36,186 bases of DNA from an uncultured Methylococcaceae bacterium. Its GTDB lineage: Bacteria; Pseudomonadota; Gammaproteobacteria; Methylococcales; Methylomonadaceae. Location: positions 1 through 36,186 of the forward strand of contig CAIYOW010000129.1 of NCBI GenBank assembly GCA_903927955.1. The letters run 5' to 3'. Under the pieces are notes generated by a model. The model had not been told where the DNA came from, did no database searches, and saw only the letters and a list, made by a program, of their open reading frames with translations. Of this stretch, positions 12,506-18,656 are shown one piece after another (the first letter of the stretch is position 1; every line of letters begins with the position of its first letter). The position numbers and the translations under genes were made by a program.

Positions 12506-12544
12506 AAGTATTTTTCAAGCCTTATCTGTAATGGCGGTCGCGTG

Positions 12545-12597
12545 ATTTTTGCCGCTTGTTGGGGCTGGGATGCCCCTAAACAAGCTTTCGCAAAAAT
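12545..12597. repeat. Long interrupted palindrome
   Basis: The arms are ATTTTTGC, GCTTGTT and GGGGC on the left and GCCCC, AACAAGC and GCAAAAAT on the right, about 20 bp of perfect pairing in three blocks. The blocks are broken by small bulges (c; ta; tttc) around the loop TGGGAT. It lies just upstream of the truncated integrase. It could be a recombination or folding site, or a mobile hairpin element. Confidence 0.6.
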
Positions 12598-12632
12598 AGC
12601 GACTCCCCCGCTGTGCTAAGTTTGGAAAATGA

Positions 12633-13160
12633 GAAAGCCAAAGGTACTTACTACTGTTGCTGCATACAGGGCTAAAGGATCAGGATGTCCGCTATTCAGA
12701 ATGGAAAGATGTCGATTTCAAAAACGATTGCTTTATTGCCAGGGACACCAAAAACCATACCGATTTTACCGCCTATATTGCGCCACAAATCAAACCCTAT
12801 TTCAGAGGCTTGCAAGCATTAACCGGCGATAACCGTTTTGTTTTCCCTGGCGATTCTAAAGATGGTGTGATGAATATACCTAGGAAACCTATTGCGGAAA
12901 TTTGCAAGAAAACGGGCATTGAATTTTCAAGCCACGACCTAAAACGAACCTTTTTAACCATTGGCGAAGCGGCAATGATACCGTTCTCTTTATTAAAAGC
13001 GCTGGCAAACCACAAAACGGATAACGACGTGACTGGCGGCTACATCAACCCCGAAGCCAAAACGCTTAAGGCGGCAACGTGGAAAATTGCCGATTATATC
13101 CAGTCCCATGCGGCGGCAACCGGAGACAATGTTCATTTTTTGTTAAAAGCGAGTGGATAA
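12633..13160 (+). pseudogene. 3' fragment of a tyrosine-recombinase (phage-type integrase) gene
   Basis: The frame is open after a TGA at 12630-12632 and has no good start. It reads YLLLLLHTGLKDQDVRYSEW, then the C-terminal catalytic boxes: SSHDLKRTF (HxxR type), LANHKTDNDVTGGYI (late His and the nucleophile Tyr region). The N-terminal arm-binding and core-binding domains are missing, and the first catalytic box reads TGLKD where TGLR is expected. About 176 residues remain of a usual 350-400. It is a dead integrase marking the history of the island. Confidence 0.75.
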
Positions 13161-13625
13161 TAAGCAACAATACCAGATCAAAGATGCCATCGTATTGCTA
13201 GCCAAGCCACATTGAAAATAGCGATGAAATTGAATCACCAATGCACTTTGATGGGTAAAATCTATGGCGCACAGCTAAATCGTAAGTAGCCCCCGATTTT
13301 CTTGAAAGATACCCAGCGTTTCCTTGCTATGAGTTTTTCGTAGTTATGCTAAATTTTAAAACGACTCTGACTATAACCTGCAAAAGCTGTAATACCTGTA
13401 ATAGCCCCCTTTGCCGACTATCAGGAATATTTTCTGAATGACGGTACGTTAGTGAAATGGACATTTAAAAAGGTTACGCGCTTGTCACGGTGGTCTAGTC
13501 GTTGAAGCTATCCAGATCAGGTTCTCATGCCAAAAGCGTATGTTTTTATGCTATCCTGTTTATGACTATAAGGATTTTAGGCGGAGATTACCCTTGACGT
13601 TAACCCTAAGAGATAGACTGAATCA
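13161..13625. other. 465-bp intergenic region upstream of the reverse transcriptases
   Basis: No gene recognised. Becomes AT-rich toward 13540. It presumably holds the promoter of the reverse-transcriptase operon, but no -35/-10 pair is convincing enough to list. No ACACAC tract occurs here, in contrast to the region after the second gene. Confidence 0.4.
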
Positions 13626-13664
13626 ATGCTGAAACAGGTTTTTGATAGAGAGCAACTTTCAAAA
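13626..13664 (+). other. Probable true start of drt3a, in a different frame
   Basis: ATG at 13626 opens MLKQVFDREQLSK in one frame. From the AAAA run at 13661-13664, the frame one base back reads SITSSDVWQWGLLSGYGDVE and continues into the reverse transcriptase. Joining the two gives a plausible N-terminus. Five A instead of four would make one continuous gene. Confidence 0.55.
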
Positions 13665-13699
13665 GCATTACATCATCAGATGTTTGGCAATGGGGTTTA

Positions 13700-14806
13700 T
13701 TGTCTGGTTATGGCGATGTCGAAACAGCCGTAAATCACACCGTTCAATATTGGAAGACACATAACATTACTTTATCATCATTGGAGACAAGGACAGTAAA
13801 GAGCAAGCCAGTCTTTATCCCGGCAAAAATGGAAGATGATTTTGCAATCAAGCTACTGGATCGGTTTATTCGACGAATTTATAAGGTCAGACAGTCAGAT
13901 CGCAATCGTATAGTCAGACAGCTAATAACGCTACTAAAAGATTCTGGCAACTATCATGTTCTTCGATTAGATGTTAAAGATTGTTACGAAACCATAAAGT
14001 TTGAATATCTTATCGATAAATTCGAAGATGAGCTGATTCTCTCCCCTGAATGTATCAAGCTACTTAATGGAATTCATAGTGATCTTTGCTGTAATCATGG
14101 TATGCATGGTTTGCCCAGAGGGTTGTCAATAAGCCCTACACTTGCAGAGCTTTATTTAGAATCGTTAGATAAGAAGGTGGCAACCCATCCTGACGTGATA
14201 TATAGCGCAAGATATGTTGACGATATCATTGTTATAGCTCCAGCAGGTAAGGAAAGTGGCTTACAAACTTATGTTGAAGGCCTCATGAATGAAATGGGGC
14301 TCAGTCTCAATAAAAATCCTGATAAGTATTACAGTAAGCTTTCAAACTTAGCAGAGTTTGATTACCTGGGTTATTCGATCAAGGTTGAGCCTAAAAATAA
14401 TAAGCCAAACCAAGTAACTTTGAAAATATCTCGATCAAAGTTAAATAAACTTAAATCTCGAATAGCAATTAGTTTTTGTGATCATAAAAAACAAAACAAT
14501 ATATCCCTTCTAAAAAGAAGGCTTGAATATCTTTGTATGCTGAAAAGAGTACGAAAGGGTAAAAACGGAGATTTGTTAGCAGGCCTTGCTCATAACTATC
14601 AGTATGTGACTGATGGTTTTGAGTGCTTAAAATCTCTTGATGGTTTTCTCTGTAAACAATTGGCCAACCCCCGATTTGGGCTCAATCAACAAGAACAAGA
14701 CAAAATTAAAAAAGTATCAATATTTGGAAACGCAAGAAAACGGAATATAGGGAAATTTAGCAAGAAGCAAACAGTTCAAATAATGCGGGTTTGGCAAAAT
14801 GCCTGA
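13700..14806 (+). CDS. drt3a: Reverse transcriptase of defence system DRT type 3, first subunit (UG3, Drt3a)
   Basis: 368 residues from a TTG at 13700. The real start is probably ATG 13626, split off by a one-base frameshift at 13661-13664, which would give about 393 residues. Reverse-transcriptase motifs are intact: motif A RLDVKDCYETI (catalytic Asp 91), GLPRGLSISPTLAELYL (137-153) and YVDD (172-175, in SARYVDDIIVIA), then the LDYLGYSI-like thumb entry (EFDYLGYSIKV). There is no maturase or endonuclease domain, so it is not a group II intron protein. Its stop overlaps the next reverse-transcriptase gene by 8 nt. The pair of unlike, adjacent reverse transcriptases is the known UG3-UG8 layout of DRT3 anti-phage systems. 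The coding sequence is visibly AT-rich against its neighbours, pointing to transfer. Confidence 0.85.
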   Translation: MSGYGDVETAVNHTVQYWKTHNITLSSLETRTVKSKPVFIPAKMEDDFAIKLLDRFIRRIYKVRQSDRNRIVRQLITLLKDSGNYHVLRLDVKDCYETIKFEYLIDKFEDELILSPECIKLLNGIHSDLCCNHGMHGLPRGLSISPTLAELYLESLDKKVATHPDVIYSARYVDDIIVIAPAGKESGLQTYVEGLMNEMGLSLNKNPDKYYSKLSNLAEFDYLGYSIKVEPKNNKPNQVTLKISRSKLNKLKSRIAISFCDHKKQNNISLLKRRLEYLCMLKRVRKGKNGDLLAGLAHNYQYVTDGFECLKSLDGFLCKQLANPRFGLNQQEQDKIKKVSIFGNARKRNIGKFSKKQTVQIMRVWQNA

Positions 14807-16742
14807 TATTATTAAAGTAGACACTAATGACAAGTTAAGAACTTTGCTAACCGATGTTCTTCCCTATGAACTACCGTTATGGTTCTCTAACTTCACAATG
14901 TATCAACGGTTCAGTACACCAAAGCATGCTAATGCGTATAGGAATATTTCGGGGCTAGAATTTGAAAGTGAAACTGGTGTCTATATTCCTTTGGATTACC
15001 TTATAAGTAGAGGTGGTAACAATACATCACGCGCAATATCGATCATGCATCCAGCAGCTCAGCTAAAAGTTTGTGATTTTTATAATGAATACAATGATCT
15101 AATTGAATATTACTGTACAAAATCTAAATACTCTTTAAGACACCCTTATAGAAAATCTACTAAGTTTTATGGTAAAACCCAAGAAGGATCAAAGCTAATT
15201 GATGGCGTTGAAAGCGCAGACGAAGAACGAATTGTTTCAAGCTCATATTTTAAATACAAAAAGTATCCTTTTTTATATCGTTTTTTCGAGTCTTATGAGT
15301 ATCACAAACTGGAAAAGCAGTTTCACAGCATGCTTCAGGTTGATATATCCAAGTGCTTTCCCAGTATCTATACCCATTCAATTGGTTGGGCTGTAAAAAA
15401 TAAGCGATTGGCTAAAGCTAAGCCAAGGGCTCATGGAAATTTTGATGGAGAATTCGATAACTTAATGCAGCTCACAAATTATCGCGAGACTAATGGCATT
15501 ATCGTAGGGCCTGAAGTAAGTCGGATTTTTGCAGAAATTATTTTACAGAAAATCGATTTAAACCTAGTCAATAAAATGATCAAAAATAATTATCAAATTT
15601 CGAAAGACTATGATTTTAGACGCTATGTAGATGATTATTTTGTTTTCTTTCGCTCTGAAGCAGTGAAAATAGCTTTCATAAAAGCACTAGCATCATGTCT
15701 ATTGGAATATAAGATGTATTTGAATGAGGCGAAAACAACAATAGCATCAAGGCCTTTTGCAACTGACATATCTTTGGCTAAACATGCATTAAGCTATGCT
15801 GTAGGTGAATACTTCAATTCACGTTATAAGGGAAAAGACACAGATTTAGAATCCATTGCTCAACTAACAAAACCAAGTTCTAAAGCCAATAAGACAATTT
15901 CTGAAATCAAAATGGCTTTGGCTAATCATAAAGTTGAGTACAACTCAATTTCTAACTATTTGTTTAGTGCAATTACAAAGCGAATGCTTACGTACTTGTC
16001 AAAGGTAGCAGAAATTGATGCAAAAGAAGAATTTCACTTAAACTGGCTGTTAGTTGATTTAGATGTGCTGTTTTTTGTTCATGCAATGGATATTCGGATA
16101 AGACCAACAGATAGATTGGCGCGTTTAATTCACGATCTCCTTAAAAGAATTTCCGATTGGCCGGAAATCCATAAAGAAATAATTCACAAGAAAATTTTCG
16201 ACCATGTTAAGCAAGCAATAAATATATTTATTAATCATGCAAATGACATGATTGGGCTTGAGACATTGAACTTATTGATTATCTTGACAATGCTACCATC
16301 AAAATATCAGCTGCCGGAGAATAAACTGAAAGAGTATTTTGGTAGCTTGGAGGAGCATTCGGAAACCAATGATTTCTATTTTCGTTGGATAACATTCATG
16401 CTATACATAGAGGGGAAACAAGAGTATAAGCAACTACGGGATGAGCTGATTAAAGCAGCTGATCATTACTTCTTGAATAGCGATGATATGTTTATATCAT
16501 CCGAATACTTTATGTTCTATTTTGATTATCTGGCTTGTCCATACATCGATGAGCCAGTGAGAAAAAAGATGATAGAAGAAGTTAAAAAAATCACCTTAGA
16601 TAGCAAACAAAATTCTGTACAATTCAACGTGAATACTCAAAGTCAAATAGTGCTTAATAAAGACTTTATTGTTAGCTGGAGGGATCCAGAATATTTAAAA
16701 AATAGCTTAGAGAAAAAAGAGTATATTTTTTCATACAACTAG
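14799..16742 (+). CDS. drt3b: Reverse transcriptase of defence system DRT type 3, second subunit (UG8, Drt3b)
   Basis: A 647-residue protein starting inside the end of drt3a, so the two are translationally coupled. The palm motifs are motif A LQVDISKCFPSIYTHSI (Asp 182), NGIIVGPEVSRIFAEIIL (232-249, the motif after the fingers) and YVDD (276-279, in RRYVDDYFVFF). About 350 residues follow with no known motif, mostly long charged helices, unlike retron or intron reverse transcriptases. The N-terminal 170 residues are also specific to this type. It matches UG8 in being much longer than its UG3 partner and lying directly downstream. A structured ACACACAC-bearing element begins 9 nt after its stop. 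All catalytic residues are present, so it looks functional. Confidence 0.86.
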   Translation: MPDIIKVDTNDKLRTLLTDVLPYELPLWFSNFTMYQRFSTPKHANAYRNISGLEFESETGVYIPLDYLISRGGNNTSRAISIMHPAAQLKVCDFYNEYNDLIEYYCTKSKYSLRHPYRKSTKFYGKTQEGSKLIDGVESADEERIVSSSYFKYKKYPFLYRFFESYEYHKLEKQFHSMLQVDISKCFPSIYTHSIGWAVKNKRLAKAKPRAHGNFDGEFDNLMQLTNYRETNGIIVGPEVSRIFAEIILQKIDLNLVNKMIKNNYQISKDYDFRRYVDDYFVFFRSEAVKIAFIKALASCLLEYKMYLNEAKTTIASRPFATDISLAKHALSYAVGEYFNSRYKGKDTDLESIAQLTKPSSKANKTISEIKMALANHKVEYNSISNYLFSAITKRMLTYLSKVAEIDAKEEFHLNWLLVDLDVLFFVHAMDIRIRPTDRLARLIHDLLKRISDWPEIHKEIIHKKIFDHVKQAINIFINHANDMIGLETLNLLIILTMLPSKYQLPENKLKEYFGSLEEHSETNDFYFRWITFMLYIEGKQEYKQLRDELIKAADHYFLNSDDMFISSEYFMFYFDYLACPYIDEPVRKKMIEEVKKITLDSKQNSVQFNVNTQSQIVLNKDFIVSWRDPEYLKNSLEKKEYIFSYN

Positions 16743-16750
16743 TTTATGTC

Positions 16751-16860
16751 GGCTACCTCCGTAAGTTTCTGCACCCACTACGGTGTTTGTACGGGCTTTG
16801 GGAAACCTTAGCCACACACACGGTGGGAGGTAGGCGGCGCCCAATAATAGTGGCGAAAAC
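16751..16860 (+). ncRNA. Candidate DRT3 non-coding RNA with ACACACAC template
   Basis: CTACCTCC (16753-16760) pairs exactly with GGAGGTAG (16826-16833), enclosing a domain. Inside is a hairpin GGCT-tt-GG / CC-tt-AGCC (16794-16813) closed by a GAAA tetraloop. Directly after it ACACACAC (16814-16821) lies unpaired before the 3' arm. CCCAC (16774-16778) can alternatively pair with GTGGG (16823-16827). A downstream GGCGC (16836-16840) could pair with GCGCC (16881-16885), so the RNA may extend past 16860. The ends are guesses. From what I recall of recent work, DRT3 RNAs carry an ACACAC template that Drt3a copies into GT-repeat DNA, which fits the sense of this strand. No protein frame explains this segment. 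Confidence 0.7.
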
Positions 16861-17004
16861 CCTAAAACAGCCGCTTAATTGCGCCCTGCTGACAGGCCTT
16901 GTTAAGTCTTTTCTTTGCGGGCTTTAATCCATCTTTTCTAAAAAGATTGCAAGCTTACAGAGACATCCTTTCCTAAATACTAGCGCAGCGCTTAAGGTAG
17001 GTTT

Positions 17005-18656
17005 CTAAGTTAGCTTGGTATTAGTGGAACGATAGCGATAGGCGGCTCTTGGCCGATTTGTGCCACATAAACAAAAATAGTTCGCACCACAACTAACCCC
17101 ATCCGCACTCAAACTCTCCGCCTGCTCCAATACCAGTTGCACGACTTCTTCCTGTTTTCCTGGCGGGTATTTGTATTTGCGTAGTATCCGTTTCACCATC
17201 AGCCGTAAGCTGGCCCTTACGCTTTCGCGCACCGACCAATCGACGCTGACATTTTTGCGTAAATTCTCAGCCAGTTCATGGGCGATTTTTTTCAGGGTTT
17301 CGTCGCCGAGTACACGGACGGATTCTTCGTTATTCGCCAACGCATGGTAAAAGGCCAGTTCATCATTGTTAAGCCCCAAGTCAGTGCCGCGCTCCGCTGC
17401 TTCCTTGAACTTTTTCGCCATCTGGATTAGCTCTTCAATCACTTGGGCGGTTTCAATGGAGCGGTTCTGGTAACGGAGGATGACATTGCTGAGCAATTCC
17501 GAGAATTTATGTTGCTGGACGATATTGCTGGCGAACCGGGCTTTTATTTCGCCTTCCAGCAAGCGTTCCAGCAATTCCACGGCAAGGTTGCGTTCAGGCA
17601 GGTTGCGGACGTCGTTGAGAAAATCTTGGTCAAGAATGCCGATATTGGGTTTATCCAAGCCAACGGCGTTGAAAATATCCACGACTTCTTCTGAGACGAC
17701 CGCCGAGCCGATGATCTGGCGGATAGCCAGCTCGCGTTCTTCATTGGCTTTCTTTTTGCCGCTGATTTCTTTCTTAGTCAGCAACACCTTAACGGCTTGG
17801 AAAAAAGCCACTTCTTCCCGCTCAGCCTTGGCTTCATCCAAGGTGCAGCATAACATGAAGGCTTTGGACATCGCCAAGGCGGTATCGCAAAAACGTTTTT
17901 TGCCCTCTTTGATGCCCAGCACATGGTTGGCGGGTTTCGACTTGCACGGGTTGTTCGCGCAATAATCCTGTGCCAAGGAAAATACGCCGAACAACTGCCC
18001 GTCCAAATCGTTGCGGTCGGTAATGACCACAATCGTCGGGTTTTCCATTTCCGGTTCGCGCATCACGCGGGCGGCAAAGCAGGTCATGGTGATGCTCTTG
18101 CCCGAACCTTGGGTATGCCAGACCACGCCGCCTTTGTGCGAACCGCCCGGACGCGAGGCCGCAATCACTTGGGCAATCGCAGTCCGCACCGCATGGAACT
18201 GATGATACCCAGCGATTTTCTTAACTAACGTGCCGTCATCTTCAAACAACACAAAATAACGCAGGAAATCCAACAGATAAACCGGAGCCAATACCCCACG
18301 CACCAGCGTTTCCAATTCATTAAACTGCCCCAGCGGACAATGGTAACGCCGTCTATGGTGCGCCGCGCCATAAAACGCCCAGTATCCGCCGACAACGAAC
18401 CCATCCGCGCTTCCGTACCGTCCGAAATCACCAGCACTTCGTTATACTCGAAGACATCAGGGATTTGCTCTTTATAGGTTTGCAGTTGGTCAAACGCTTT
18501 CCAAATATCGGCGTTCTCATCAGCCGGATTTTTCAGCTCCAGCAACACCAAGGGCAAGCCGTTTAAAAATAAGATAATGTCAGGGCGGCGGGAATATTTT
18601 GCCCCTTTGATGGCAAACTGGTTGATTAACAGACCACGACCCGCAACCGCTGGCAT
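17005..18656 (-). pseudogene. hsdR: Type I restriction enzyme R subunit (hsdR), truncated and deleted
   Basis: Three lesions are visible. The 5' end is missing: a TAG lies in frame just before the ATG at 18656. The N-terminal PD-(D/E)xK nuclease part is present (RRPDIILFLNGLPLVLLELK). Near 18336-18341 a one-base loss shifts the frame, since the continuation PLGQFNELETLVRG is in the next frame. Walker A (VVWHTQGSGKS) and TDRNDLDGQLFG follow. The chain then jumps after FSLAQDY straight to C-terminal sequence (CKSKPANHVLGIKEGKKRFC), losing helicase motifs from DEAH onward in an in-frame deletion. The C-terminal helical region (FFQAVKVLLTKKE to EEVVQLVLEQAESLSAD) remains with an abnormal tail. 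No hsdM or hsdS is visible. It is non-functional as a motor. Confidence 0.85.

Follow-up and report, generated by a model that had tools for sequence, protein, structure and literature searches.

A DRT3 reverse transcriptase locus with a broken first gene in the Methylomonas family

Two adjacent reverse transcriptase (RT) genes and a downstream RNA in an uncultured Methylococcaceae bacterium are, on sequence grounds, as good as certain to derive from a DRT3 anti-phage system. They lie in the stretch of DNA analysed here (the window; 36,186 nucleotides, positions 1 to 36,186 of contig CAIYOW010000129.1, assembly GCA_903927955.1). The reading that we favour, with reasonable though not full confidence, is that this is a horizontally acquired DRT3 locus whose copy is disabled by a break in Drt3a, with Drt3b and the RNA remaining. 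Family, gene order, key residues, template and break can all be seen in the sequence, and function has probably been lost from the window copy. We take the locus for an ordinary further example of a published system, with its first gene probably disabled.

DRT types were reportedly described by Gao et al. in 2020, and the E. coli DRT3 of PDB entries 9z6y and 9z6z is said to be the work of Deng et al. in 2026.

The DRT3 mechanism is described in a bioRxiv preprint (Wang et al., PMC13174585) and a review (PMC13314766). According to these, Drt3a copies the RNA sequence 5'-ACACAC-3' into poly(dTdG), and Drt3b makes poly(dCdA), primed on Y666, its E22 and R241 determining which nucleotides are used; RecBCD holds down the resulting double-stranded DNA until the phage protein Gam blocks RecBCD. 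By homology, an intact relative of the window locus would use its (AC)n RNA loop for poly(dTdG) synthesis by Drt3a, and its Drt3b would start on its own penultimate tyrosine and make poly(dCdA) with side chains substituting for a template. The two strands would pair into double-stranded DNA that host RecBCD removes; when a phage blocks RecBCD, the DNA would build up and the infected cell would be stopped. The host genome has a recC match above the family cut-off in a profile search (recC being the one RecBCD subunit searched). In the window copy, with the Drt3a frame broken at about residue 15, Drt3b and the RNA would be what remains of this scheme.

In the list of open reading frames (ORFs), the drt3a RT ORF (13700–14806, plus strand) and the drt3b RT ORF (14799–16742) overlap by 8 nt, at 14799–14806. 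Each has a match to Pfam RVT_1 that exceeds the Pfam cut-off, and each carries the motif A Asp and the YVDD that the initial annotation had described. Searched against PADLOC-DB, the first RT is matched best by Drt3a (PDLC02174; 393 bits, 3.9e-118, profile positions 30–402 of 403) and the second by Drt3b (PDLC02176; 671 bits, 6.6e-202), the next families other than Drt3a and Drt3b scoring 115 bits (8.7e-34) and 166 bits (3.7e-49), respectively. Sequence matches to solved structures point the same way: the first RT matches Drt3a of 9z6y (3.9e-29), and Drt3b (14799–16742, plus strand; 647 amino acids, frame intact) matches 26cz (6e-101) and 9z6y (6.6e-82).

The gene pair recurs in relatives. We compared 88 Drt3b loci, comprising the window, 80 loci from a genome scan (the best 80 of 282 relatives) and seven plasmid loci; because this set includes near-identical loci, counts over it are not independent. 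In 82 of the 88, an upstream partner with 340 or more open codons ends at the drt3b start; two others are too near a contig edge, and four have a shorter partner (L018, L025, L062 and L093), L062 lying near the edge of its contig. Profiles, solved-structure matches, key residues, gene order and the RNA template all agree, and we therefore uphold the original proposal of a UG3 plus UG8 pair in the DRT3 layout: the Drt3 models score best for both proteins, rather than any family outside the UG group, and the paired arrangement is present in related loci. That the two genes are instead another RT pair, of retron, group II-like or Abi type, is scarcely credible: weaker matches to such RTs exist, as they do for RTs generally, but the Drt3a model is 278 bits and the Drt3b model 505 bits ahead of the next family, and both gene order and RNA template agree with DRT3.

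PDB 26cz is probably the Drt3b of EcoDRT3 (PMC13174585), as its 775 residues fit 667 amino acids plus a tag of 108. EcoDRT3 shares with the window the gene order, an RNA downstream that contains an AC template, and the penultimate tyrosine; it differs in its distant protein sequence (6e-101 over Drt3b) and in that the Drt3a frame is broken in the window. Counted along the printed alignment, E24, R78, D182, F187, R242 and YVDD of the window Drt3b stand opposite E22, R71, D182, F187, R241 and YVDD of EcoDRT3 (26cz). Y646, also penultimate, falls one position beyond the printed end of the 26cz alignment, where Y666 is expected. Across the 88 aligned Drt3b proteins, the R242 column holds R in all 88, the E24 column E in 83 and D in 3, the R78 column R in 85 and the Y646 column Y in 86. 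By alignment, the window Drt3b keeps the published nucleotide-selecting and priming residues (E24, R78, R242 and Y646). In three loci (L004, L059 and L080), Asp replaces the A-gating Glu of Drt3b and AC repeats are still found downstream; an E22D variant is partly active according to the preprint (PMC13174585).

The E. coli system of 9z6y and 9z6z resembles the window in sequence matches to both Drt3a and Drt3b, although its Drt3b is more distant than 26cz (6.6e-82) and its Drt3a has 426 amino acids compared with 393 in the nearest relative of the window. Structure prediction gave a fair model for Drt3a (from the intact L015 protein; mean pLDDT 82.4) and a poor one for Drt3b (mean pLDDT 69.7). 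No DRT3 entry occurs among the 50 structure matches listed per protein (library up to 8 April 2026). Among those listed, group II-like, DRT9, retron, DGR and DRT2 RTs lead for Drt3a, and UG15, DRT4, DRT6, AbiP2 and AbiK lead for Drt3b; among the best 25 matches of Drt3b, no TM-score to the query is above 0.29.

Directly after the RT genes, where a structured RNA candidate had been noticed, an alignment of 11 close loci together with pair counts and folding defines a DRT3 noncoding RNA at 16743–16845 (plus strand, ends approximate), with an outer helix (16749–16760 with 16826–16837) and hairpins at 16761–16772 and 16794–16813. A predicted (AC)4 template for poly(dTdG) lies at 16814–16821, its role taken from the preprint (PMC13174585), and CACACACG, which covers the second half of the template and the next base, is invariant in all 11 aligned loci. 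The fold has a z-score of −2.40, with 5 of 200 shuffles folding at least as well. The alignment supports 20 pairs in three helices, with 93.8% of cells paired and changes on both sides in 9 of the 20 pairs; four of five pairing measures are higher than in any of 500 shuffles, the fifth (further pair types) is equalled or surpassed in 19 of these and every slid version scores lower, all of these values being favoured by a structure derived from the very alignment used to score it. This fold and its covariation bear out the RNA candidate.

Three or more AC or CA units lie in the first 330 nt downstream of drt3b in 83 of the 88 loci. Over 400 nt the count is 84 of 88, compared with 90 of 1,299 control stretches of that length taken from these loci. 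Two of the five misses at 330 nt (L025 and L089) have a Drt3b that is cut short, so that the search fell outside their actual downstream region. In the other three, L046 (Colwellia), L050 (Prevotella pallens) and L070 (Snodgrassella), Drt3b looks whole and keeps its key residues without three AC or CA units in 330 nt; a shorter ACAC or CACAC lies downstream in L046 and L050, and none was seen in L070. The templates of these three loci are possibly short or of another sequence, or their RNA may lie in another place.

The first gene had been read as intact from 13626 and the locus as complete-looking, and neither description holds. The ATG and first 15 residues of Drt3a (13626–13670, plus strand) match residues 1–15 of the intact L015 protein at 100%, in a frame that is open only from 13617 to a stop ending at 13733. 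The remainder, with all RT motifs, is in another frame (13661–14806, plus strand; 88% match to residues 13–393 of L015), which is open from 13649 to 14806 and whose first ATG, GTG or TTG is the TTG at 13700, giving 368 amino acids. In Methylomonas sp. WSC-7 (L015), both halves are joined in a single 393-amino-acid ORF, and at the break the window and L015 DNA differ in length by other than a whole number of codons. As the sequence stands, Drt3a is therefore not a complete frame, and because the frame breaks at about residue 15, full-length Drt3a should not be made. The break lowers the claim of a complete copy, not that of DRT3 descent. We considered a programmed frameshift common to the family and rejected it, as the nine other aligned Drt3a genes are single frames. 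The window itself passes the upstream-partner length test, with 368 codons, so such counts miss breaks near the gene start, and further broken Drt3a genes may lie among the other 81 loci that pass. Separately, Drt3a is also broken in the DRT3 locus of Limnobacter sp. 130 (L018, 3826–5008), where it is split into two parts, of 164 and 174 amino acids.

A shortened Drt3a, some 25 residues fewer and starting at TTG 13700, or a little full-length protein made by ribosome slippage, would let the system work. Every RT motif does lie 3' of that TTG, and the structure prediction for the first 30 residues of Drt3a has low confidence (mean pLDDT 51–57 by block). We nevertheless regard this as improbable: the N terminus MLKQ is found in all nine other aligned Drt3a proteins, which also have several further N-terminal positions in common, the alignment of the 9z6y Drt3a with the intact relative starts at residue 6 of the latter and, by eye, no classical slippery site was seen.

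More serious, though still a minority view on our part, is the reading that the break is a sequencing or assembly error in an intact, working DRT3 locus. The genome is a draft (2,941,556 bases in 162 contigs), and the two halves of Drt3a are otherwise well conserved. Of the codon changes derived on the window branch, 12 in Drt3a (counted from 13700) are nonsynonymous and 19 synonymous, the Drt3b figures being 15 and 38; on the WSC-7 branch they number 14 and 14 in Drt3a, and 26 and 16 in Drt3b. The window branch is thus no more relaxed than that of WSC-7, which means that the break is either recent or an assembly error. A real mutation is favoured because the other large ORFs in the window are open while neighbours in the same island have decayed. 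The RNA also argues against an error, being altered in the window at paired and shared positions whereas the three nearest relatives have no such changes.

These alterations comprise two broken pairs (alignment columns 14–158 and 26–31) and, immediately 3' of the template region, a G at 16823 (plus strand; column 147) in place of the A of the other 10 aligned RNAs. The three nearest rows (L015, L016 and L017) have no unpaired cell and no lone departure from shared bases, and among the four nearest rows the window has six changes of its own, compared with four, four and one. The changes hint at weakened constraint. Against a disabled copy, distant loci that look intact also have unpaired RNA pairs (three in L020, one in L021, four in L022, two in L023 and one in L024), and L018, L020, L022 and L023 likewise depart where the other 10 rows agree; moreover, decay is invisible beyond the break and these few RNA changes, selection is not relaxed and the drt3b frame is intact. 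We give very little credence to a further possibility, a working locus in which the overlapping frames limit Drt3a through slippage or re-initiation, the RNA is altered just 3' of the template and the protein-templated strand would exceed the RNA-templated one. A copy disabled by a real break in drt3a remains our preferred reading.

The nearest relative that we found is the DRT3 of Methylomonas sp. WSC-7 (L015, L002 and L008), a genome (G056) of the same family as that of the window and of another genus. It shares 91% DNA identity with the window from 13552 to 16849 and its Drt3b is 90–91% identical; it differs in its intact Drt3a and in that about 190 bp after the RNA are inverted relative to the window. 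This post-RNA stretch (16846–17027 in the window, 7037–7232 in L015) is 80% identical in opposite orientation at the same place and, among 101 genomes, occurs in the window genome and WSC-7 only. The idea that it is an integron attC site was dropped: the pattern occurred downstream in 0 of 88 loci and in 1 of 1,121 controls, and it missed even the L017 candidate from which the idea came, which makes the test too strict to be decisive.

Full Drt3b is present in 2 of the 101 genomes searched, the window genome included; three have a match, namely the window genome, WSC-7 (91%) and G060 (partial, 36%). A tree was built from 48 of the 88 Drt3b proteins. In it WSC-7 is the sister of the window (100/98) and Oceanospirillum joins next (99/86), whereas the Bathymodiolus methanotroph symbiont falls outside the surrounding nine-row group, a pattern not expected from the species tree. 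Beside the WSC-7 locus are ORFs that we took, on inspection by eye, for the conjugation genes of an integrative element. Because of these conjugation-like neighbours, the scarcity of full Drt3b and the tree, the locus was probably gained horizontally. In viral contigs, seven stretches fit a search pattern and none is related to Drt3b by tblastn; phage records gave six partial RT matches, all of them covering less than 80% of Drt3b. Genome G009, with an FtsH that is 99% identical, has the region in common no further than 12165, with other genes beyond, so this comparison yielded no clean empty site.

The surroundings match the initial description of an AT-rich locus between dead mobile and restriction genes. 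GC content is 34–37% in 1-kb windows over the RT genes and about 43–55% in windows clear of them. Upstream lies a tyrosine integrase fragment (12657–13160, plus strand; 167 amino acids, PF00589 at 27.4 bits against a cut-off of 27.1, profile positions 31–168 of 172), and downstream are hsdR remnants (17005–18656, minus strand), which the ORF list and Pfam and PADLOC searches resolve into two ORFs in different frames with the middle of the protein missing. Scans of the locus found no excess of promoters (13; shuffle mean 13.3) or terminators (3; 2.4 in shuffles), and Rfam gave nothing at gathering scores; an RNase_MRP match inside drt3a at a loose threshold was below gathering and was taken as chance. 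A short repeat at 12530–12608, palindromic by eye, has 11 matches in its own genome; of 41 genomes searched, 23 have it, including 19 of the 20 from its own genus. It occurs as well on one Methylobacter and one Methylomonas plasmid, the Methylomonas record having it in eight places; it is perhaps a small mobile or REP-like element.

DRT3 is the published case of protein-templated DNA synthesis, and the window places it in the Methylomonas family; judged by titles, none of the papers listed by our searches deals with DRT3 in methanotrophs. The locus also carries a warning, as both catalytic motifs and the RNA can be present and yet a locus can be broken at its start. The DRT3 module seems to pass between distant gammaproteobacteria.
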